This document shows, piece by piece, positions 13,983 to 59,098 of a stretch of DNA of 64,000 bases (positions within the stretch are counted from its first letter, which is position 1; every line of letters starts with the position of its first letter). The DNA comes from a bacterium. Its GTDB lineage: Bacteria > SZUA-79 > Acidulodesulfobacterales > Acidulodesulfobacteraceae. Below the pieces are notes generated by a model. It was given only the letters and a program-made list of their open reading frames with translations, was not told the origin of the DNA and ran no database searches. The position numbers were made by a program, and so were the translations under genes. The DNA lies in the NCBI GenBank assembly GCA_021798875.1, contig JAJZBN010000001.1, positions 145,634 to 209,633 on the forward strand. The letters are read 5' to 3'.

Positions 13983-14080
13983 AAATAAAACCTCCTTCAA
14001 TGATTTAATATTTATATATAAGTTTAAATGTTAAATGTTATTATATTAATTTTATAAGTTAATTTAAAAAATTTCAACTG

Positions 14081-14212
14081 AAAAAGGTGTCAGATTTTAT
14101 TTTCCGCAGATGAAACGGTCAATAAGAAAAAGGTGTCAGATTTTATTTTCCGCAGATGAAACGGTCAATCAACATTAAAAGCTATTTAGGAAAATTAATC
14201 TGACACCTTTTT
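14081..14212. repeat. Palindromic repeat family, site 1 (43-bp direct pair plus inverted half)
   Basis: Two identical 43-base copies lie at 14081-14123 and 14127-14169 (46-base period), each beginning AAAAAGGTGTCAGATT and ending ACGGTCAAT. An inverted copy of the 16-base core follows at 14197-14212, next to the 3' end of the OsmC gene. The same core recurs at 19.6-19.8 kb. The form (short core in direct and inverted copies, able to fold, intergenic only) is that of REP-like elements or a small non-autonomous element; no transposase is nearby. Confidence 0.85.
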
Positions 14213-14225
14213 CCGTTCCCTTTAT

Positions 14226-14690
14226 TTACATACGTTTTTCCGAACTATCAAACGAAATTTCAAAATATGTCCGTTTTTCTATCATAGTGTGTACGGGACA
14301 TCTCTGCGAAACTCTCTGGAGTTCTTCTATCTGGTCGTCGTCTAAATTTCCTATAAATTTTATCTTTTTTTCTATTTTATGAACGTAACCCCTTTCATCG
14401 TCTATTTCAACCCCAGAGTCTTTTAGTTCTTCGACCCTGACCCTTTTGTGAGTAAGATTTATTTCTACGCCCTGCAGATCGTACTTCATTCTTTTTGCAA
14501 ACATCATAAGTACCGAAATAGTGCACGAACCTTCCCCTCCAAGCACAAGTTCGATGGGATTAATCGCAAGTTCGTCGCCGCCCGAATCCTCCGGCTCGTC
14601 GGTTATAATCGTATGCTTTTCGGTAATTATCTGATTTTGCAAATTATTTAAATGCTTAACTTTGACGCTGACTAATTCCGCTTCGTTCAA
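14226..14690 (-). CDS. OsmC/Ohr-family redox protein
   Basis: A 154-residue OsmC-fold protein. Members of the family reduce peroxides or carry thiols through two Cys residues; both are present here, C56 in GGEGSCTISVLMMFAKRM and C131 in RCPVHTMIEK. The start is TTG at 14690 with CTCCT (AGGAG) 8 nt upstream. It is the last gene of the lipoate-related cluster, 127 bp after lipS2, and may be an independent thiol-peroxidase or may act on the thiol chemistry of the cluster. A specific substrate is not inferable from sequence. Confidence 0.85.
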   Translation of the reverse strand: MNEAELVSVKVKHLNNLQNQIITEKHTIITDEPEDSGGDELAINPIELVLGGEGSCTISVLMMFAKRMKYDLQGVEINLTHKRVRVEELKDSGVEIDDERGYVHKIEKKIKFIGNLDDDQIEELQRVSQRCPVHTMIEKRTYFEISFDSSEKRM

Positions 14691-14817
14691 TTCTTATTCT
14701 CCTTTCTTACAAAATCCGGCACTTCTTTCTAACTTAACTACTTTACTTTTTAATAAATTTCTCTCTTTTTTAATAAAAGGCTTCAGGCAAAACCGGCCGG
14801 AGCGGTTTTTGTATTAT

Positions 14818-15963
14818 TTAATATTCCAGCAATTCTTTTCTTACCCTGTTTAAGTCGGCAGCGTTAAGCTCAAAAGGGAAACTTCTTATATTTTTTGGAG
14901 AAGAGTCGCCGAAAGGCCTGTTGCAAGCTGAAATTTCGGTTCTGCCCGGACAGCCCGTAGTCTGGAAAGCTGCGCCTCTTTCAACTATTTCCGCCACATT
15001 TTTAAAAGGTATTCCGAAATCCGTTATTTTTCCGCTTTCGTCAAATTTCATGTTTTCGGCTCTTCCCAAATCGTAGTCGATTATATGCCTTGCAACCTGA
15101 ATTCTTCTATACTGTCCTGCAGGACATTGCGGGTGGTTTTCTAATCTGGAACCTTTTTCCTGATAAAAAGAAAAAAGATGCGATCTTGCCCCTTTATCTC
15201 TTACCGCCTGTATTCTTTCAGCCATTTCTTTCTCCGTTTCTCCTAGACCGACTACGAGGTGGCATCCGACTTTATTTTTGCCGAAAACGGAAACGGAATA
15301 TTCCAGTATATCGTTATATTTTTCCCATCTGTGCGGACCACCGACGCCTCTGCCTCTGTATTTATCGAATAAATCAGGCGTTGCCGTATCTAAAGCTACG
15401 GTAACCATATCCGCTCCGTATTCTTTAAATTTGTCTATATCTACGTGCTTTAATATAGTTGGGGTCATAAGTATAGAAACGGGACAATGGAGCTCGCTTG
15501 AAAATCTTTTTAAAATAGTCAAGGTGTCGTCTTTTGCCTTTTCGTGCGTTATCATGGAAATACAAATTCTGTCAACTATTTTTTTCTTTTTTAAAGCAGA
15601 TTCTATTATGTCGTCGGTTTTAAACGCAGGCCAGTCCACCCTTATAAAACTCTTATCGTTATATCCGCCTTCTCTCGATTTTTGAAGTCCGCAATAAGCG
15701 CAATTTGCCCTGCAGCCTTCTTCGTAAGTCAAAAGAACGTTTATGCAGTGAAGGCAGGCGTTGCGGTAAAAAATACCGGGTACGAAATCCATAGTCATAG
15801 CCGCCGCTAAACTCACTTTTAAATATTCGGGAGAACTTCCGAAAATATCGGAATCTTCTTTACGCTCTATTACTTTAAATACTTGGTTATTTTCATGGCA
15901 TCCGCACTCGAAATAGGAATTTTTTTCCGCCTTTTCCGCAGCAAGTCCCGTTATTCCGTTCAT
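14818..15963 (-). CDS. lipS2: Radical-SAM protein, LipS2-like lipoyl synthase subunit
   Basis: A 381-residue radical-SAM enzyme. The cluster-binding triad is C84, C88 and C91 (CRANCAYC); more Cys residues lie at C20/C22, C70/C73 and C338/C347 (GCPGRTEISAC), candidates for an auxiliary iron-sulfur cluster. The family was long annotated as biotin-synthase-like. In archaea and some sulfur-oxidising bacteria two such proteins, LipS1 and LipS2, together insert the two sulfurs into protein-bound octanoate, replacing LipA. Context (lipoate ligase, second radical-SAM gene, two lipoate carriers) supports this role. Assignment as LipS2 rather than LipS1 is my judgement from size and overall similarity and is less certain than the pair assignment. 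Confidence 0.8.
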   Translation of the reverse strand: MNGITGLAAEKAEKNSYFECGCHENNQVFKVIERKEDSDIFGSSPEYLKVSLAAAMTMDFVPGIFYRNACLHCINVLLTYEEGCRANCAYCGLQKSREGGYNDKSFIRVDWPAFKTDDIIESALKKKKIVDRICISMITHEKAKDDTLTILKRFSSELHCPVSILMTPTILKHVDIDKFKEYGADMVTVALDTATPDLFDKYRGRGVGGPHRWEKYNDILEYSVSVFGKNKVGCHLVVGLGETEKEMAERIQAVRDKGARSHLFSFYQEKGSRLENHPQCPAGQYRRIQVARHIIDYDLGRAENMKFDESGKITDFGIPFKNVAEIVERGAAFQTTGCPGRTEISACNRPFGDSSPKNIRSFPFELNAADLNRVRKELLEY

Positions 15964-16002
15964 ATTTTTACGTCCTCCGTTATCTTTTTTTAAATTAACG
16001 AA

Positions 16003-17574
16003 TTATTTTATTTTATTATTAACGGTTACCTGCCGTCCGTCAAAAATTTTAAATAAAACCCGCGCGCCTAGCTTAGTTTCTCCGTTAAACCTGCCTTCGT
16101 AAGCATCGCTTTCCTTTTTATATTTATAGCATAACGGAGAAGAAATGTCGATTAAGAGGGCTTTTATACCGCTTTTTTTAAACGCTTCGTTTCTTTTTAC
16201 ATAAAATTCTTTGCAGCAGAAACCGATATAAGATTGAATACCTTTTATTTTTAGTTCTTTTAAAGTTTCCACCAAATTTTCGTAACTTATAACAGTTTTT
16301 GGAATAATTCCGTATTTTTCCGCAAATTTATAAGCAATACCCGTTTCGCATTCTCCGCAGGCGATGCATTTATCTTTGTTTCTAAATTCGCAGTCCGGTT
16401 TTTTTGCACAGTAAGGAAGCAAAATATATTCCGCCGAAGCAATATCTTCGGCATTCATTCCGTTTACGAACGTAAACCTCGATAAATCTTCCTCTTTTAC
16501 GCCGGAGTTTTTAAGAAACTGAACTTTATTTATTATTTGAACAATTATATTAAAAAAATCTTCTTTTTTTACGTTGTGAAACTCGGGCTTAAATTTTTCA
16601 AAATAATCGTCAATTTTAAATACGGCTTCGTTTAGCTGAACGTCTTTAAGACAGCTTTCTAAATCGTTAATAGTTCTTGCAGGCGAAACGAAAAAATCTC
16701 CGGTAAAATATATATATTTTAATAAATTTCTTTTTTCGTCCACCTTTGCAAAGGTTTTAAAAACTCCTCCCGCGCATTTATATATTTCGGAAATTATTTT
16801 TGTTTCCGCAGGATTAAAATCTTTTGAATAAATCCATTTTTCGGAAGAATAAAAAGAAATATTTTCATTTAAAAAATTTTTTTCTTCCTTAGAAATTTCA
16901 GACTCGTAAAAATCTAAATTTAAATGCTCCTTAAAACCGTCTAAAACGGCAGATTTTATAGATTCTAAATCGGGTATATAACCTAAAATATTTTTGACGG
17001 AGGTTACCCTCGATAAAATAGAATCAAAATTTTTAGCCGTCAGCTTTTCTATCGGGATTTTTAAAGATTTTACCATATTTTCGGGGTTGAAATCCAAAAG
17101 GAGCGTCCCCTGAAAAAAATAGACCGAAGACTCGTATGTTCCTCCCGTTCCGGATATCTTGCGCCCTTCGACTTCTATATCGTTTCTCGGCCTGAATTCT
17201 GCATTTATCCCAAGTTTTTTCATTCCTTTAGAAAAAGCAGCGCATATATTTTCCGTCAAATCGTCGAGATTTTTTATTTTAATGCTTTTAGCCGAAAAAA
17301 CAAGTTCCCATCCAAGCTGGGCTTCGTCGAAATATATAGCTCCGCCTCCGGTAATTCTTCTGCCGACGGCAATATTTTTTTCTTTGCAGTAATCTAACCT
17401 TATTTCGCTGTATATGGACTGATGATAACCCGTCAAAACGCAGGGTTCAAATCGCAAAAAACGGAAGGTGTCTTCTATAAGCCCGTCTTTTCTTAATTCT
17501 ATCAGGGCTTTATCCATGCATATATTATAAGAGAAATCTTTTAAGCCCGTGTCTATAACTCTAAACATACGCAA
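16003..17574 (-). CDS. Lipoate-protein ligase fused to a DUF116-like Cys-rich domain
   Basis: A 523-residue two-part protein. Residues ~5-215 are a ligase of the LplA/BPL fold with the lipoate-AMP loop RRITGGGA (72-79) and the catalytic Lys in GRKISGTGG (K139). Residues ~215-350 resemble the accessory C-terminal ligase domain. Residues ~380-505 match a DUF116-like region with many Cys: C389, C395, C403, C406, C409, C453, C454 and C482, including a CxxCxxC group that could hold an iron-sulfur cluster or zinc. The ligase part would attach octanoate or lipoate to the LbpA lysines. It lies 8 bp after lipS1 and 39 bp before lipS2, so one transcript is likely. Confidence 0.85.
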   Translation of the reverse strand: MRMFRVIDTGLKDFSYNICMDKALIELRKDGLIEDTFRFLRFEPCVLTGYHQSIYSEIRLDYCKEKNIAVGRRITGGGAIYFDEAQLGWELVFSAKSIKIKNLDDLTENICAAFSKGMKKLGINAEFRPRNDIEVEGRKISGTGGTYESSVYFFQGTLLLDFNPENMVKSLKIPIEKLTAKNFDSILSRVTSVKNILGYIPDLESIKSAVLDGFKEHLNLDFYESEISKEEKNFLNENISFYSSEKWIYSKDFNPAETKIISEIYKCAGGVFKTFAKVDEKRNLLKYIYFTGDFFVSPARTINDLESCLKDVQLNEAVFKIDDYFEKFKPEFHNVKKEDFFNIIVQIINKVQFLKNSGVKEEDLSRFTFVNGMNAEDIASAEYILLPYCAKKPDCEFRNKDKCIACGECETGIAYKFAEKYGIIPKTVISYENLVETLKELKIKGIQSYIGFCCKEFYVKRNEAFKKSGIKALLIDISSPLCYKYKKESDAYEGRFNGETKLGARVLFKIFDGRQVTVNNKIK

Positions 17575-17582
17575 TAAATTAT

Positions 17583-18584
17583 TTAATTTCCGGTTTCTAT
17601 TACCGGCAAAGCCGATTCAGAAAAAATTAAAGAACAGCAGACCTCGGAAAACTTTGGTTTTAAACCTAATTTTATGCTGAAAGGAATTATTCCTTCCGAC
17701 GGATAGGCTATGCCGTTTAAACCTGCTTTTACCGCAAGTTCTTCTATTTTAAACTTGCTTAATCCGTATGGCCTTTCGCATCCTAAAAGAACCGGAGTTT
17801 TAATAAATTTTTTGCGAGCATATAAAAAAACTTTTCCTATCTCTTCTGCGGCGGGCGGAGCCATGTTTTCCATTTTCGTATTGTGCATAGGCATAAAACC
17901 GACCAATACAAGCGACGATATATCGTAATTGGATATAATGTCTATTGCGTTAAATTCTCCTGCTATTACACCGTGTTTTAACCCGATTACTACATGCGGC
18001 GAACAGGGAATTTTTCTGTCGGACAAATATTTCAAAGAATTTTCGTAGTCTTTAACTTCTGCGTTAAGGTGATAAATTTTACGTATCGTATCTTCTTCGC
18101 CGATAATATCGAGCATAGCGGAATCAACTCCTGCTTCCAAAAGTCCGTCGGCTATCTCTTCCGTAATAAGCCCGCAATGCACAATAACTTTAAGGTTTAA
18201 TTCGGATTTTATCTTTTTGATAGTTTTTATATACGGCAGAATATCTACTATTCCTCTGCTGTTGGAACCTCCGCTAAGGAGAAAGCCTAAACCTCCGGAC
18301 TCATAAATAACATTCGCTCTTTCAAACAGTTCGTCGGGAGTTAAAGCCGGAGCCATAGATTTTAAAATTTCCGCATTGCAGTGTTCGCATTTCAAAGAGC
18401 AGGAACCGCCGGTAATAGAAAAAGGAGGAAAAGAGTCCGACTTAGTATTTTTAAAATCTTCCGTTTCGTAAGATTTTATACTTGGAGCGTAAAAATTTAT
18501 TTCCGAATCGAAATAGTTTTTTCTGATTTCAAAACCTTCTGCATATTCTTCGTCGATATTTTCGTCATATTCATAAAAACTCAT
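17583..18584 (-). CDS. lipS1: Radical-SAM protein, LipS1-like lipoyl synthase subunit
   Basis: A 333-residue radical-SAM protein with the cluster triad C62, C66 and C69 (CSLKCEHC) and a biotin-synthase-like barrel (LSGGSNSRG, VHCGLI, HVVIGLKHG). It ends with a Cys pair (SEVCCSLIF) that may bind a second cluster. In the two-protein lipoyl synthase LipS1 pairs with LipS2 to sulfurate octanoyl carriers. It is separated by only 2 bp from the lbpA-like gene upstream and 8 bp from the ligase gene downstream, tying it tightly to lipoate assembly on the two carriers. Which of the two radical-SAM genes is LipS1 is inferred. Confidence 0.8.
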   Translation of the reverse strand: MSFYEYDENIDEEYAEGFEIRKNYFDSEINFYAPSIKSYETEDFKNTKSDSFPPFSITGGSCSLKCEHCNAEILKSMAPALTPDELFERANVIYESGGLGFLLSGGSNSRGIVDILPYIKTIKKIKSELNLKVIVHCGLITEEIADGLLEAGVDSAMLDIIGEEDTIRKIYHLNAEVKDYENSLKYLSDRKIPCSPHVVIGLKHGVIAGEFNAIDIISNYDISSLVLVGFMPMHNTKMENMAPPAAEEIGKVFLYARKKFIKTPVLLGCERPYGLSKFKIEELAVKAGLNGIAYPSEGIIPFSIKLGLKPKFSEVCCSLIFSESALPVIETGN

Positions 18585-18586
18585 AT

Positions 18587-19033
18587 TTATCTCTTTTTGC
18601 AGATTATATCTTCCTTCTCAAGCTTTTTTACGTATGCTTTGACTGCTTCTTCGCCGAAAGGAAGGGAATTTACGTCCGAAACGGACTCGGGAAGAGGCTT
18701 TAATTTTACAATCCAGCCTTTTCCGTACGGGTCTTCGTTTATGATGTGGGAATCGTTTTCAAGCTCCTTATTTACCTCCGTTATTTCGCCGGCAAAAGGC
18801 ATCGGAAAAGGACCGACGTATTTTCCGCTTTCGATTGTAGCGGCACTTTTCCCTTTCTTAATAATTTTACCTACGGGCTTAACGTCTGCGTAAAGAATCT
18901 TGCCGGCTAAAGACTGTGCCGGATCCGTCATTCCGAAAGTAAAAGTTCCGTCGCCGTTTTTTTTGCCCCAAACCTGATTTTCGATATCGTAATAAAGGTC
19001 TTCCGGCAGATTGCATTCGTTAAAAATAGGCAT
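18587..19033 (-). CDS. lbpA2: GcvH-like lipoate-binding protein (LbpA type), copy 2
   Basis: A 148-residue lipoyl-domain protein of the glycine-cleavage H fold. The predicted lipoylated lysine is K71 in TIESGKYVGP; true GcvH proteins usually have ESVKA here, while ESGKYVGP is typical of the LbpA carriers linked to heterodisulfide-reductase-like sulfur oxidation. Cys residues lie near both ends (NECNLPEDL and DIICKKR) and match those of the paralogue upstream. No gcvP or gcvT is nearby, which argues against a glycine-cleavage role. No hdr-like gene is in the window either, so the sulfur-oxidation link is inference from the carrier type and the lipS1 neighbour. Confidence 0.85.
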   Translation of the reverse strand: MPIFNECNLPEDLYYDIENQVWGKKNGDGTFTFGMTDPAQSLAGKILYADVKPVGKIIKKGKSAATIESGKYVGPFPMPFAGEITEVNKELENDSHIINEDPYGKGWIVKLKPLPESVSDVNSLPFGEEAVKAYVKKLEKEDIICKKR

Positions 19034-19091
19034 TTATATACTCCAAATTTTTATAAATTTATATTTTGCGGTTTTATTTATTTTATTCGCA

Positions 19092-19532
19092 TTATTCGCA
19101 CTTAATTCCGTCGGCTTCGATTTTTTTCTTGTATGCTTCTACCGCTTCTTTTCCTGTAAGAAGATTTTTTTTGTCAGCTTCGATGTTGTCTGCTTTAATC
19201 TTGCATACCCACCCTTTGCCGTAAGGGTCGGAATTTATTAAAGATACGTTTTTAACCGCGTCTTCGTTTATTGCCGTTATTTCTCCTGAAAACGGAGCTG
19301 GAACGGGTCCGACGTATTTCCCGCTTTCCACTGTTGCGACGGACTTAAGCTGGGCTATCTTTTGACCGACTTTTTTAGGAGTAAGGTATAAAAGTTTACC
19401 GGCTAAACTTTGAGCTACGCTCGTCATTCCGACGGTCACAATACCGTCGTCGCCTAATTTTCCCCAGACGTGCTTTTCTACGCTGTAGTATAAATCTTCC
19501 GGAATATCGCATCCGTTAATCTTGGACGACAT
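19092..19532 (-). CDS. lbpA1: GcvH-like lipoate-binding protein (LbpA type), copy 1
   Basis: A 146-residue paralogue of the next gene with the same layout: NGCDIPEDLYY at the N-terminus, lipoyl lysine K72 in TVESGKYVGP, SDPYGKGWVCKI, and a Cys near the C-terminus (GIKCE). It has a strong ribosome site (GGAGGAATT) and is the first gene after a well-formed promoter (TTGAGA, 17 nt, TATTAT). Two carriers of clearly different sequence suggest two partner complexes or two steps of one pathway. They are separated by 58 bp and share an orientation with lipS1, the ligase fusion and lipS2. Confidence 0.87.
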   Translation of the reverse strand: MSSKINGCDIPEDLYYSVEKHVWGKLGDDGIVTVGMTSVAQSLAGKLLYLTPKKVGQKIAQLKSVATVESGKYVGPVPAPFSGEITAINEDAVKNVSLINSDPYGKGWVCKIKADNIEADKKNLLTGKEAVEAYKKKIEADGIKCE

Positions 19533-19565
19533 AATAAATTCCTCCTTAATATTAAATTTAAATAT

Positions 19566-19594
19566 ATAATACTACATTTTTTTATTATTCTCAA
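19566..19594 (-). promoter_or_regulatory. Predicted sigma70-type promoter of the lipoate cluster
   Basis: On the minus strand TTGAGA (19589-19594) and TATTAT (19566-19571) are 17 nt apart, ending 33 nt before the lbpA1 start. It is the only well-formed promoter I see ahead of the six-gene run down to the OsmC gene, and lies between that run and the repeat cluster at 19.6-19.8 kb. Confidence 0.65.
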
Positions 19595-19608
19595 GTACGC
19601 CTTTTAAG

Positions 19609-19815
19609 AAAAAGGTGTCAGATTTATTTATTTTCTTACTCCCGACTGCGTTTGCAGGTTTATTAGATACCGAAAAGAACGAAAAAGGTGTCAGATTAAT
19701 TTTACGCAACATCTTTTATCGTTAATTGTATATTTTCGTATGCGTAAAATAAAATCTGACACCTTTTTCTGTGACACCTTTTTCTGCGTAAAATAAAATC
19801 TGATACCTATTTCTG
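19609..19815. repeat. Palindromic repeat family, site 2
   Basis: Cores AAAAAGGTGTCAGATT (or its first 15 bases plus variation) run forward at 19609-19625 and 19682-19697. Inverted copies lie at 19749-19768 and 19795-19814 (the latter degenerate), with a partial one at 19772-19784. The copy at 19682-19708 and the inverted copy at 19741-19768 can pair over about 27 bases with one indel, leaving a ~32-base loop. The family is the same as at 14.1 kb. It fills the gap between the lipoate cluster and the crotonase gene; no gene is seen in it. Confidence 0.85.
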
Positions 19816-19869
19816 CAATTTTCCGTTATTTTCGAGTACGGCGTAAAACACACGATATTTTATATTTTT

Positions 19870-47860: not shown

Positions 47861-47889
47861 AATACAACATAAAAAACGGTTCATGTCAA
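47861..47889 (-). promoter_or_regulatory. Predicted promoter of the regulator-tamB unit
   Basis: TTGACA (47884-47889), 17 nt, TGTATT (47861-47866); a TATTAT two bases further (47859-47864) gives a 19-nt spacer as alternative. The -35 element lies over the last codon and stop of the HD-GYP gene. Confidence 0.5.
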
Positions 47890-49061
47890 GAATTTTCCTC
47901 ATCTATTCTCCGCCTTGCTTCCAGTATCTCGTCTATGCCTTTTAAAAAAGCGCCGAAACAGGCGGGATCGAAAGCCGCCCCAGGCTTCATTTCGTCTTTC
48001 ATTATCCTGAGGGTTTCTTCCAGCGTATAAGCCGGTTTATATATTCTTTTATTTATAAGCGCGTCGAAAACGTCGGCTATCTTAGTAATCCGTCCGGAAA
48101 GCGGTATGGCGTCGCCCTTCAAACCGTTAGGATATCCGCTTCCGTCGTAATTTTCGTGATGCGATAATGCTATAACCGCGCCTTCCTTTAATGTATTAGA
48201 CTCCGAATCCTTTAATATATTATATCCTATTACGGTGTGCGACTTCATAATTTCAAATTCGTTTTTATCCAATCGTCCGGGTTTCAATAGAATATTATCC
48301 GGTATTCCGACCTTGCCTATATCGTGCATGGGAGAGGAATTCAATATATTCTCCCGATAAACGCCGTCCATTCCAAGTTCTTTTGCTATAATTGCGGCAT
48401 AATGAGACATTCTGGCAATATGGTTTCCGGTGTCTTCGTCCCTGTATTCCGCTAAAACCATTAAGCTGTTAATAGAATCGTGCTCCATTTTATAAACGTC
48501 GTCTATTGTTTTTTGATAATACGATTCTATGGCAAGCGTTATATCGATAGACAGCATTTTCTGTACCGAATTAAGTATCGATATAGACTCTTCGCTGTCT
48601 ATGCCTTTTTCTTTACAGCATTTTATAACGGCATTAGTTATAAGCGTATTGTAATATCCGTAACTACCTATATAAACCGAAGGAGATATCTTATAAACGT
48701 AATGCGCAAAACCGACTATAACCCTGTTAATAAAATAATTTTCGTCATACGTCAATCCGAACAGCTGCTTAATATAGTGGGACTGAGTAAGTTTCAGCTG
48801 CTCCAAAAGGTCGGGTCTTGAATTAATAATTTTAGCGGTTTCTTCGATATTCAGCAAATAATCGTAAAAATCCGAAGCTATTTTTAAAGAATTATTTTCT
48901 ATACATTCCGTTATTTTACCTATGCCGTCTATGTCTTTTTGCGTAAAATGAGTCAAATCTTTTAAAAGTTTTACATTGTTTTGACCGAAAAGACCGTAAA
49001 TGCCTATAACGCCCTTTTCGGTCATTTTATTTTTTTTTAATATGTCGTCCAATCTGCTCAT
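47886..49061 (-). CDS. Globin-coupled HD-GYP domain protein
   Basis: A 391-residue two-domain sensor. Residues ~20-185 are a protoglobin/globin-coupled-sensor domain, recognised by YDENYFINRVIVGFAHYVYK and SPSVYIGSYGYYNTLI; H120 is at the position of the heme-ligating proximal His. Residues ~190-380 are an HD-GYP domain with metal residues H246/D247 (HDIGK) and the signature HHENYDGSGYP (301-311), expected to hydrolyse cyclic di-GMP. It should report oxygen, NO or CO to c-di-GMP level. A clear ribosome site (AAAGGAG) precedes the start. No transmembrane segment, so cytosolic. Confidence 0.88.
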   Translation of the reverse strand: MSRLDDILKKNKMTEKGVIGIYGLFGQNNVKLLKDLTHFTQKDIDGIGKITECIENNSLKIASDFYDYLLNIEETAKIINSRPDLLEQLKLTQSHYIKQLFGLTYDENYFINRVIVGFAHYVYKISPSVYIGSYGYYNTLITNAVIKCCKEKGIDSEESISILNSVQKMLSIDITLAIESYYQKTIDDVYKMEHDSINSLMVLAEYRDEDTGNHIARMSHYAAIIAKELGMDGVYRENILNSSPMHDIGKVGIPDNILLKPGRLDKNEFEIMKSHTVIGYNILKDSESNTLKEGAVIALSHHENYDGSGYPNGLKGDAIPLSGRITKIADVFDALINKRIYKPAYTLEETLRIMKDEMKPGAAFDPACFGAFLKGIDEILEARRRIDEENS

Positions 49062-54623: not shown

Positions 54624-57023
54624 ATGAATAAAAATTTTTTTAAAAAAAATTTTATAAAAAATCTGGTTGTTTTTATATTTTATCTTCTTATATCGGTCTT
54701 TTTTTTCGGTTATCCTATACTGGAGCATATATCTAAATACTATATAGGAGGAGGGATAGATCCTACCCAATACATATGGTCGTTCGAATGGGCAAAATAC
54801 TGCCTAATCCATTTTAAAAATCCTTTTTATACTAATTTTATGTGGGCGCCGCGCGGCTTTAATCTTACCGGTTCTACCGTAGTATTCGGCGCCGCTTTTC
54901 TTTCTTTGCCGCTTACAACTCTTTTTGGTCCCGTCGCAAGCTACAATACGGTTATGATTTTGCTTCCAGCCCTTGCCGCTTTTTCTATGTTTATACTGCT
55001 TAAACATATCATAGAATTAAATGCGGCGGAATTAGCTGCCGTTAAAAATCCGACGCGGTTTTTTCCAGCAATAATCGGCGGATATATATTCGGCTTTTCA
55101 AGCTATATGATAAATCAGATGTCTTCGCATATGCACCTCGTCCTCGTGTTTTTAATCCCGCTGATGGTTTATCTGTTTCTGCTTAAAATCGAAAACCGCA
55201 TTACGAATTTAAAATTTATTTCGCTTTTTACGATTATGCTGATATTTCAATTTCTTTTTTCGTTGGAAATTTTTGCGACTTTTACGTTTTTCGGATTTAT
55301 TTCTTTAATTATATTTCACTTAATATACAATAAAAATAAGATTCGGAACGCAAATAGAAAAAAAGATTTATCTGATAACGATAATAGAAATACATGTAAT
55401 ATAAACGAATCTAAAGATAAAACTAAAGCTAAAGATTTAAAATTAAGAATTTTAAAAGCGTTAAAGCCTGCCGTAATTTCTTATATCATAGCTGCCGCCA
55501 TTCTTTCGCCGTATCTTTATCTGTTTTTTATCCAAGGCAGATTTAACGTCGTGCATTTTGCGCCGGCAGATTTTTCTTCAAACCTTTTAAACTTTTTTAT
55601 ACCTTCAAAATATACTATGCTCGGCGGCAATTTCTTTACCTTTTTATCCGATAAGTTTGACGCCCGCGATTACGTTTTCGACCAAGACGCGTATTTAGGG
55701 CTGCCTTTTATAGGCATTCTTATTTTTTATTTCTATAAAAACGGCTCTAAACTATTAACGAAAGCATTAATGTATACTTTTTTAACCATAGCGGTATTTT
55801 CGATAGGGCCTACGCTTCATATTTACAAATATTCCATTATGCCTATGCCCTACAAGCCTTTCGTGGTAGTCCCGCTTATAAAACATGCTCTCCCCGCCCG
55901 TTTCATGCTTTACGCTTTTTTCGTGCTCGGCATAATAACAGCTTTATTTTTAAGCGAACCATTGAAAGACGAAACGTTAAACTCGATAAAATATGCATCT
56001 GCTTTGTTGGGAATTCTGTTCATCCTGCCCCCTTTAAATTTTTCCGGAAGATATACAAAACCGTATCTTCCGCCTTTTTTCTCCTGCAATACCGGCAATA
56101 CTTTTATCAATAACAAAAATAACGATAAAAATTGCGGCAATTACAAAAAATTTATTAAAAAAGATTCAAACGTGCTTATTATTCCTTTCGGTTATAACGG
56201 TTTATTCCTATATTATCAGGCAATCGACGGAATGTACTATAAAACGGCGGACGGATATCTCGGCGCTACTCCGTCTTATTTTTCAAAATATCCTATAGTT
56301 CATTCGTTTTATCATGCAGAACCGATACCGTATTCAAAAATGGAATTAGCTAATTTCCTTTACAGGCATAAAGTAAAAAAAATTATCGTTATTCCGCCGG
56401 TAAATAAATATTATTTTAAACTTTTCGATAAAATATCGCCCGGCAGAAAACCTGCTTATAAAAACGGCGTTTATATTTACTCCGTTTCTGCGAAGGCTAC
56501 ATCGAAATATAAAACTTTAAAAATAAAAATTACAAAACCTATTCTTAAGGAATATTATTTCGGCCTCTTATTGAAAGGAGCAATAAAATTTATAAAAGTT
56601 AGTTTATCTAAAAATAAATATAAATATGAGGGTAAACATAATAGTAAATTTGTATATGAAAAAATATACAAAAAGATATCTCCCGCATTCTTAGAAAAAT
56701 ACGGCTATATACCCAAGTTTTTCGGAGTATCTAAAAAACCTTATTATACGGCGCAGGATTCCTGGATAGGTCCTTTCGGAAATGCAAAAACCGGTATAGA
56801 TAAAGATAAAGGTAAATATAAAGGTTTAGGTGTAGAAATAGGAATAGGCATTGGCATAGGCGGCTCATATAAAAATTTGCGTTTAATTTTCAAAAAATAC
56901 TCTAAATACGCAAAAAAAATCTATTTCCCTTATCCGATAATATATAACGGCTCAAAATCTGGAAACGGCTTGCTTTTAATGGTATTTAACGCAGGTAGTT
57001 TAAAATCTTTCCCCTTATTTTAA
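54624..57023 (+). CDS. Polytopic membrane protein, GT-C-like, paralogue 1
   Basis: A 799-residue protein with about 10-12 membrane segments in the first ~480 residues and a large C-terminal part outside. The conserved N-terminal loop (GGGIDPTQYIWSFEWAKY, then PFYTNFMWAPRGFNLTG) is shared with the paralogue downstream (NIDPTLFIWFIEWWPF, AYMWAPEGI) and resembles the first extracytoplasmic loop of GT-C glycosyltransferases with its acidic residue. The tail is Lys/Tyr/Gly-rich. Function unknown; likely transfers a sugar from a lipid carrier, or acts in glycan assembly. Confidence 0.75.
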   Translation: MNKNFFKKNFIKNLVVFIFYLLISVFFFGYPILEHISKYYIGGGIDPTQYIWSFEWAKYCLIHFKNPFYTNFMWAPRGFNLTGSTVVFGAAFLSLPLTTLFGPVASYNTVMILLPALAAFSMFILLKHIIELNAAELAAVKNPTRFFPAIIGGYIFGFSSYMINQMSSHMHLVLVFLIPLMVYLFLLKIENRITNLKFISLFTIMLIFQFLFSLEIFATFTFFGFISLIIFHLIYNKNKIRNANRKKDLSDNDNRNTCNINESKDKTKAKDLKLRILKALKPAVISYIIAAAILSPYLYLFFIQGRFNVVHFAPADFSSNLLNFFIPSKYTMLGGNFFTFLSDKFDARDYVFDQDAYLGLPFIGILIFYFYKNGSKLLTKALMYTFLTIAVFSIGPTLHIYKYSIMPMPYKPFVVVPLIKHALPARFMLYAFFVLGIITALFLSEPLKDETLNSIKYASALLGILFILPPLNFSGRYTKPYLPPFFSCNTGNTFINNKNNDKNCGNYKKFIKKDSNVLIIPFGYNGLFLYYQAIDGMYYKTADGYLGATPSYFSKYPIVHSFYHAEPIPYSKMELANFLYRHKVKKIIVIPPVNKYYFKLFDKISPGRKPAYKNGVYIYSVSAKATSKYKTLKIKITKPILKEYYFGLLLKGAIKFIKVSLSKNKYKYEGKHNSKFVYEKIYKKISPAFLEKYGYIPKFFGVSKKPYYTAQDSWIGPFGNAKTGIDKDKGKYKGLGVEIGIGIGIGGSYKNLRLIFKKYSKYAKKIYFPYPIIYNGSKSGNGLLLMVFNAGSLKSFPLF

Positions 57024-57343: not shown

Positions 57344-59098
57344 ATGTCAAAATCGAAAAAAAAAACTTCGTTAATTAATATTACAGTTTTTATAATATAT
57401 ATTTTAATATCTCTGGCATATTTCGGCTTTCCAACTTTAAATTCCCCTCAAACACGTTATGTAGGAATGAACATAGACCCTACTCTTTTTATATGGTTTA
57501 TCGAATGGTGGCCGTTTGCGATTATTCATCATCTTAATCCGTTTACAACGGCTTATATGTGGGCACCCGAAGGTATTAAGAATCTACTATGGCTTAATGC
57601 TATTCCAGGTTTAAGCATAATATTTTCTCCGTTGACTATTTTAATCGGACCGGTTTTTACTTATAACGTTATTGCTTTATTAAGTCCTGCTTTATCGGCT
57701 TTTTTCGCATACATATTAATAAAATATATAACTAAAAATACCGCAGCATCGGCAATTTCCGCATATCTATACGGATTTTCAAGCTTTATAATGGGCAATT
57801 CAGATTTAAACGTTTTTTTTATATGTCTTATTCCTTTATTGGTTTATCTTTTTCTGCTTAAATATGACGATAAAATTAATGCAGTTGTTTACGTTATCTT
57901 ATCCGCCGTAATTTTTACCCTTGAATTTTCAATATCGCCCGAAATTTATTTAATTATATTTTTCTTTGCTATTACAAGTATTTTAATTTATATATTGCTC
58001 ATCATAAAAAATAAAAAAATTGAATATTTATCAAAATTTATCGTAAATTCTTTTTATTTTATCTTAAGCTATGTTTTATCTATAGTCTTAGTAAGTCCAT
58101 TTTTATATATCATGTTCGAATCGATAGAAAAATCTCCCAAATATCCGATGAATCCTATAAGCTGGAGTACTTATATAATAAATCTTATTTTACCTGGACC
58201 TGTTATTTTTCTCGGCGGAAGGCTGTTTTATCAAATTTTTAATTTTCGCATCCGTGAAACCGCTTCATATCTAGGAATTTTTATTTTTATTATGCTAATA
58301 TGGTTTGCATATGAAAGGCGGAAAAAGTCAAAGTCCATTGCCGGCAAATATCTTCTTATTTTATTGGCGGTTATATTAATTTTATCGCTTGGACCATACC
58401 TGCATTTCAACGGAAATAACACGCACTTTCCTCTTCCATGGTATATCTTTTATAAACTGCCGGTAATAGGCAAGGCTATTCCGATAAGATTTATGTTATT
58501 TGCATTCCTAATTTTAAGTATTATTGCGGGACTCTGGCTTTCTTCCCATAATAGTTCCAATCCAATCAAAATAATAAAGTATATTATTCTATTTTTAGCG
58601 ATATTTTCTTTCATTCCAAACCAGTATTATTTCGACTCTAACTCTCATATGCCAAGATTTTTTTACAAAAAAGAATATAAAAGATATATAAAAAGAAACT
58701 CGATCGTTATGATTATACCGTTTTCCAATTCCGGATACAGTCTTTTATTCCAAGCTTATACCAAAAATTATTTCAGGCTTGCCGGAGGCTATAACGATAC
58801 TAGTTTTATACCTATCTCATATAAGCGCAGCTTAATTTTTGAACATTTTTTATACAATAAAAAATTCAGCAGAACAAATTCAAAAAAAAATTTAAAAACC
58901 TCAAATTTATTCAAAAAATTTTTACTATACCATAAAATAAACTATATAATAGTAGTTAGGGGTCGAAATGCATATATTCCCGGATACGGCTCCTATCATC
59001 CTTTTAAAAGATTTAAGAATATACTTAATACATTAGGTATCATACCCGTTGAAAAAGGCGGCATATTGCTATATAAAATTCCTAAAAATTATAAATAA
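57344..59098 (+). CDS. Polytopic membrane protein, GT-C-like, paralogue 2
   Basis: A 584-residue paralogue of the gene at 54.6 kb. About 11 membrane segments; the shared loop contains NIDPTLFIWFIEWWPFAIIH and AYMWAPEGIKN. A shorter C-terminal part follows the last membrane segment (about 415). It lies 27 bp downstream of the GT2 remnant and 3 bp before a GT9 gene. Proposed role as for paralogue 1. Confidence 0.75.
   Translation: MSKSKKKTSLINITVFIIYILISLAYFGFPTLNSPQTRYVGMNIDPTLFIWFIEWWPFAIIHHLNPFTTAYMWAPEGIKNLLWLNAIPGLSIIFSPLTILIGPVFTYNVIALLSPALSAFFAYILIKYITKNTAASAISAYLYGFSSFIMGNSDLNVFFICLIPLLVYLFLLKYDDKINAVVYVILSAVIFTLEFSISPEIYLIIFFFAITSILIYILLIIKNKKIEYLSKFIVNSFYFILSYVLSIVLVSPFLYIMFESIEKSPKYPMNPISWSTYIINLILPGPVIFLGGRLFYQIFNFRIRETASYLGIFIFIMLIWFAYERRKKSKSIAGKYLLILLAVILILSLGPYLHFNGNNTHFPLPWYIFYKLPVIGKAIPIRFMLFAFLILSIIAGLWLSSHNSSNPIKIIKYIILFLAIFSFIPNQYYFDSNSHMPRFFYKKEYKRYIKRNSIVMIIPFSNSGYSLLFQAYTKNYFRLAGGYNDTSFIPISYKRSLIFEHFLYNKKFSRTNSKKNLKTSNLFKKFLLYHKINYIIVVRGRNAYIPGYGSYHPFKRFKNILNTLGIIPVEKGGILLYKIPKNYK

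Follow-up and report, generated by a model that had tools for sequence, protein, structure and literature searches.

We identified a six-gene operon in a member of Ca. Acidulodesulfobacterales (family Acidulodesulfobacteraceae) that is likely to be the dedicated lipoylation module of a heterodisulfide-reductase-like (sHdr) sulfur-oxidation system, with the type-I sHdr complex encoded on another contig of the same genome as its client. The operon lies within a 64,000-nt stretch of contig JAJZBN010000001.1 (assembly GCA_021798875.1), hereafter the window, as six minus-strand open reading frames (ORFs) at 14226-19532 in the order lbpA–lbpB–lipS1–lpl–lipS2–osmC. An earlier annotation made from the letters of the window (the sequence-only reading) had reported six co-directional genes, all of which were found at that place and on that strand. 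The assembly comprises 2.5 Mb in 126 contigs with an estimated completeness of 97%; its contigs (C, the window's being C121), the genomes compared with it (G) and their loci (L) are cited by number. The genes of the operon are:

19092-19532, minus strand: lbpA, lipoate-binding protein A, 146 aa, with K72 in ESGKYVGP and cysteines C8 and C145 (PF01597 at 123 bits, cysteine pair, tree)
18587-19033, minus strand: lbpB, second LbpA-type carrier, 148 aa, with K71 in ESGKYVGP and cysteines C7 and C145 (PF01597 at 125 bits, cysteine pair, tree)
17583-18584, minus strand: lipS1, radical S-adenosylmethionine (SAM) lipoyl synthase subunit 1, 333 aa, with C62-x3-C66-x2-C69 (NF053742)
16003-17574, minus strand: lpl, lipoate-protein ligase with LplA catalytic, LplB-like and C-terminal DUF116 (about residues 380-490) parts (Pfam, predicted model)
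14818-15963, minus strand: lipS2, radical-SAM lipoyl synthase subunit 2, 381 aa, with C84-x3-C88-x2-C91 (NF053743)
14226-14690, minus strand: osmC, OsmC-family protein, 154 aa, with C56 and C131 in GEGSC...RCPVH (PF02566 at 46 bits)

Judged by their sequences, the two carriers are sHdr-type LbpAs and not GcvH, because of their cysteine pair and their position in the carrier tree. Both belong to the Pfam family GCV_H, and the ESGKYVGP motif pointed out by the sequence-only reading is indeed present at the lipoyl lysine, K72 in LbpA and K71 in LbpB. Published LbpAs combine a lipoyl lysine with a cysteine near each terminus, and these cysteines are not found in GcvH (PMC6067878). LbpA and LbpB have both, whereas the genome's own GcvH1 and GcvH2 have neither. 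A tree of 51 sequences, none of them a named reference LbpA, places the cysteine-pair carriers together on one side of a branch with 99/97 support, and LbpAs encoded within type-II sHdr clusters in G243 and G102 fall there too. The carriers therefore keep the LbpA-type assignment given to them earlier and do not group with true GcvH. A further published LbpA trait, location in or next to an hdr-like cluster, is one of neighborhood and not of the protein; it is not seen in the window's genome, and same-locus orthologues in several same-genus and family genomes do adjoin an hdr cluster. Separately, an LbpA-like gene without the cysteine pair adjoins HdrC- and HdrE/NarI-type genes in G060 (L243:6767-8907, judged by eye).

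The radical-SAM proteins gave as by far their best NCBIfam matches NF053742 for LipS1 (223 bits, curated cut-off 230, vs 30 bits for BioB) and NF053743 for LipS2 (217 bits, curated cut-off 270, vs about 30 bits for BioB). These margins bear out the earlier LipS1/LipS2-like assignment and speak against biotin-synthase-like enzymes, which we rejected. Both proteins contain the CxxxCxxC motif and have the lpl gene as a neighbor, and the radical-SAM cysteines are invariant in 19/19 LipS1 and 18/18 LipS2 sequences; a phmmer search of both against PDB sequences returned no matches. The ligase matched LplA-B_cat at 154 bits, followed by an LplB-like stretch. An AlphaFold2 model of the full protein (mean pLDDT 67.5) matched Thermoplasma acidophilum LplA (3r07_A, TMt 0.77) and LplB (3r07_C, TMt 0.87). 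The fused ligase of the sequence-only reading is thus an LplA-LplB ligase, to which a DUF116 domain, missed there, has to be added.

From lbpA to osmC, the intergenic gaps are 58, 2, 8, 39 and 127 nt; the 127-nt gap precedes osmC, which has its own ribosome-binding site and whose cotranscription with the other genes is putative. A promoter-like element was found 5′ of lbpA, although matches to the promoter consensus are no commoner in the region than in shuffles:

19566-19594, minus strand: promoter-like element TTGAGA-17-TATTAT, 5′ of lbpA (consensus scan)

Those genomes of the genus that were examined, and G019 as well, keep the element 5′ of lbpA, whether or not an hdr cluster is linked.

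In the mechanism that we favor, the LplA-LplB part of the ligase would load octanoate or lipoate onto K72 and K71 of the two carriers, LipS2 and LipS1 would insert sulfur at carbon C8 and then C6, perhaps helped by the DUF116 domain through electron or sulfur supply, and the lipoyl-LbpAs would then serve the type-I sHdr complex as carriers of sulfur intermediates. Modification of LbpAs by sLpl(AB) and LipS1/S2 has been shown biochemically (PMC10332631).

The sequence-only reading had stated that no hdr genes are present. A search with PF02754 found HdrB-type CCG matches on C4, C90, C105, C109 and C110 and none on C121, the window's contig; for the genome, the statement is ruled out by a complete type-I sHdr cluster on C105 (L056:4457-10194). 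Its gene order, C1-B1-A-H-C2-B2, is that of type-I sHdr (PMC11582611), and the full-length best match of its sHdrA is Hyphomicrobium denitrificans sHdrA (6TJR) at 277 bits, the highest-scoring methanogen HdrA reaching 195. Of the 30 family genomes, 28 have type-I sHdrB1 complete or as a partial sequence, the exceptions being G009 (59% complete) and G024 (85%), and LipS1 was found in nearly all family genomes having type-I sHdrB1. Two to three full-length sHdrB1 copies occur per metagenome-assembled genome in G010 (L163, L164) and G007 (L165), either as paralogues or from mixed strains.

Other lipoate-dependent functions are encoded elsewhere in the genome. A gcvT-gcvH-gcvPA-gcvPB cluster lies on C81, a second gcvH lies beside a ligase/transferase gene on C74, and LipA is encoded on C95. 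The lack of a gcvP/gcvT partner noted earlier therefore applies to the operon and not to the genome. With separate GcvHs for glycine cleavage and a LipA available, the lipoylation module looks dedicated. A glycine-cleavage or E2 client was rejected on account of these separately encoded glycine-cleavage genes and GcvHs and of the LbpA cysteines of the carriers. The genome also encodes seven TusA homologues, and C101 (L255) bears what looks by eye like an SQR gene with DsrE-like neighbors.

In relatives, the operon adjoins a second hdr cluster. Two genomes of the same genus (G003, G008) and four of the family (G016, G019, G021, G023) share the order RND-crotonase-arsR-hdrC1-B1-A-C2-B2-lbpA-lbpB-lipS1-lpl-lipS2-osmC-tilS-ftsH, with a methyltransferase gene before tilS in some. 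Shorter contigs show parts of it: the same order from crotonase in G007, arsR-hdr-lbpA in G012, and hdrC2-B2-lbpA onwards in G024. In B1 and A, this linked set shares only about 45% identity with its C105 counterpart; it is without H, and its HdrA scores about equally against 6TJR and methanogen HdrA. For C1, B1 and A of an etf-linked type-II cluster in G243, profiles built from the C105 genes outscore those built from the linked genes, and the C105 H profile matches the homologous H gene at 62 bits. We did not find the linked cluster in the window's genome assembly, nor at the locus in G002, G005, G010, G011, G013, G014 and G018; arsR alone is left in G017, and in G020 arsR lies directly 5′ of lbpA at the contig end. 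Accordingly, the gap between the crotonase (ECH) gene and lbpA measures 5470-6325 nt in the seven relatives where the whole cluster can be seen, 682 nt in G017 (arsR only) and 102-241 nt in seven relatives without it. The corresponding site in the window is:

19533-19869, no strand assigned: site of arsR and the linked hdr cluster in relatives; here 337 nt with REP-like repeats

In a concatenated operon tree, the presence and absence of the linked hdr cluster needs at least 4 changes, and the window's genome falls within a five-member clade without it. This distribution is consistent with repeated loss of the cluster across the family, although it may instead have been gained repeatedly. On the line leading to the window's genome, a single event probably removed the cluster, and the operon was left with a conserved promoter of its own. 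The separation of module and client described by the sequence-only reading thus stands insofar as no hdr gene is adjacent, but it is partly a local rearrangement, as relatives have hdr genes directly 5′ of lbpA. The resulting split layout of LbpA operon and sHdr genes is unusual. The patchy distribution shows that an LbpA module can exist apart from hdr genes, and therefore having no adjacent hdr does not mean having no client. A C1-B1-A-C2-B2 cluster like the linked set also occurs beside a Rieske-like gene in G350 (L191:2349-7377), where no LbpA was seen.

Repeats with the core AATCTGACACCTTTTTC flank the operon on either side, at window positions 14080-14213 and 19608-19813. The core has 12 window matches at ≤3 mismatches vs 0.24 expected, and the repeats, possibly REP-like elements, are also dispersed on other contigs of the genome. 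A role for them in causing the hdr loss is unsupported, since the near relatives G002, G011 and G013 have no repeats at the empty site.

Several observations weigh against the pairing of operon and type-I sHdr. The type-I genes are unlinked to the operon in every genome whose surroundings were read, and the pairing therefore rests on co-occurrence and LbpA identity. The second hdr cluster, next to which the carriers lie in relatives, may be the one with which they co-evolved, and a third LbpA-like gene found elsewhere in relatives could be the type-I partner. Additionally, both LipS1 and LipS2 score under the curated NCBIfam cut-offs, and the assembly is incomplete by estimate and divided among many contigs.

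In one alternative, the linked second hdr cluster was the true partner and the module, after the loss of that cluster, was kept for another purpose such as electron donation from dihydrolipoyl-LbpA to an OsmC peroxidase. The position of osmC is suggestive because lipoylated proteins serve as reductants of Ohr enzymes (PMC5962072). The gene follows lipS2 in most family genomes regardless of the linked hdr cluster, and its redox cysteines C56 and C131 are invariant in 16/16 family members. Furthermore, a title cited in PMC10332631 reports that Trichomonas hydrogenosomes have OsmC together with a glycine decarboxylase complex that is incomplete. A lipoyl-dependent peroxidase activity for this OsmC is, however, only hypothetical: the protein scores 47 bits against an NCBIfam OsmC-related cut-off of 95, and its catalytic Arg was not identified. 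The earlier description of an OsmC gene at the end of the module is true of most of the family but not of all, as osmC is gone from the locus in G017 and G020 while the rest of the operon stays. With type-I sHdr, as a class in need of LbpA, present in the window's genome, we regard this alternative as unlikely.

Slightly less probable still is that the third LbpA-like protein, LbpA3, serves type-I sHdr, with LbpA and LbpB as the carriers of the second hdr cluster. In the relatives G003, G016, G017, G018 and G019, an LbpA3 gene adjoins a thioredoxin-like gene; where checked, its product has the cysteine pair and the lysine in ESGKWVGP. These genes are:

L236:9749-10198 (G016), L237:9712-10161 (G019), L238:9074-9523 (G003), L240:4514-4963 (G018) and L241:9359-9808 (G017): LbpA3-like genes

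However, LbpA3 was not found in the 97% complete assembly of the window's genome, which retains type-I sHdr, and LbpA and LbpB are retained in lineages without the second hdr cluster. Finally, although LipS1/LipS2 do lie within glycine-cleavage clusters in other genomes, it is very improbable that general clients such as glycine cleavage and 2-oxoacid dehydrogenases receive their lipoyl groups from this module, through carriers that act as a relay, given the GcvH, LipA and second ligase/transferase available here and the specificity of published sHdr-linked ligases for LbpAs (PMC6067878). Service to the type-I sHdr of C105 thus continues to be the reading that we favor.

The ligase of the module has a C-terminal extension:

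16003-16530, minus strand: DUF116-like part of lpl, residues 349-523, with cysteines C389, C395, C403, C406, C409, C453, C454 and C482

DUF116 (PF01976) is matched at 31.1 bits (E 2e-7, Pfam gathering score 25), and the alignment to the standalone DUF116 protein of the same genome is a weak hhalign match (P 73%, E 3e-5). A fold search with this part (model pLDDT 72) gave no match at E≤0.001. All eight cysteines are kept in 20/20 fusions, including that of G060, which is related only at the domain level. The G060 fusion (L151) has the same LplA-LplB-DUF116 architecture with 36% identity over 513 aa, but it lies between tusA and a geranylgeranyl-reductase-family oxidoreductase gene on a contig too short to show LipS1/LipS2. 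Full-text literature searches returned no paper joining DUF116 with lipoate, and we describe it as a divergent cysteine-rich domain previously unreported in such a ligase. DUF116 as a general mark of lipoate loci is unsupported, since the standalone protein of this genome adjoins def- and fmt-like genes and the DUF116 loci read with their flanks in G288, G164, G168 and G107 are not lipoate clusters.

The domain is probably a metal- or Fe-S-binding unit, which may assist LipS1/LipS2 by electron or sulfur supply. The FAD oxidoreductase LipT has been proposed as the electron source of LipS1/S2 (PMC10332631), and more tentatively, DUF116 might take that role as a cysteine-ligated (Fe-S) electron or sulfur donor that couples carrier loading to LipS1/LipS2 sulfur insertion. 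We consider this specific role doubtful and only hypothetical, because the operon contains no lipT but a geranylgeranyl-reductase-family oxidoreductase is encoded on C101; for the same reason we dropped the claim that LipT is strictly absent. If true, it would assign a function to a DUF116-family domain. The fusion also hints at a still unassigned component of the LipS1/S2 pathway, in which the provision of electrons and sulfur is unproven.

Elsewhere in the window, ORFs at 54624-57023 (799 aa) and 57344-59098 (584 aa) have no Pfam match at E≤1e-5, and 47886-49061 encodes a fusion of a Protoglobin domain and an HD-type signaling domain.

Ca. Acidulodesulfobacterales have been described as acid-mine-drainage sulfate reducers that might also oxidize sulfide through Dsr (PMC6776010). 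The conserved type-I sHdr together with a dedicated LbpA maturation operon points to a second, oxidative sulfur route for them. Their top transcripts include hdrB2, hdrC2, gcvH, sqr and sirA, which were filed under methane, glyoxylate and relay categories (PMC6776010); these may be transcripts of an sHdr-LbpA system. Our literature searches found no papers on SZUA-79 with Hdr, nor on sHdr with Acidulodesulfobacter.

The kind of system described here, an sHdr-LbpA lipoylation module, is already known. A partly similar cluster in G070 (L192:5230-9182) encodes, one after another, a GcvH-like carrier, a ligase, LipS2 and LipS1; no hdr gene lies nearby, and that genome gives no strong sHdrB1 match. 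Unlike in the window's operon, its carrier is without the cysteine pair (IQTRKWIGK), its 352-aa ligase is without DUF116, and osmC is missing. The closest known counterpart is the lipS1-lipT-lipS2-slpl(AB)-lbpA module of H. denitrificans and Thioalkalivibrio (PMC6067878, PMC10332631). As there, two LbpAs with the lysine and cysteine pair are clustered with LipS1, LipS2 and Lpl(AB), and a canonical LipA is also present in the genome. The operon of the window differs in having no lipT, in the C-terminal DUF116 of its ligase and in the added osmC. Additionally, it has no hdr genes next to it, in contrast to the strict linkage described for the proteobacterial and Aquificae group I clusters. The C105 cluster resembles the type-I shdrC1B1AHC2B2 (PMC11582611) in gene order, in its subunits and in an sHdrA closest to 6TJR, but throughout the family genomes with surroundings read it stands apart from lbpA and the maturation genes.

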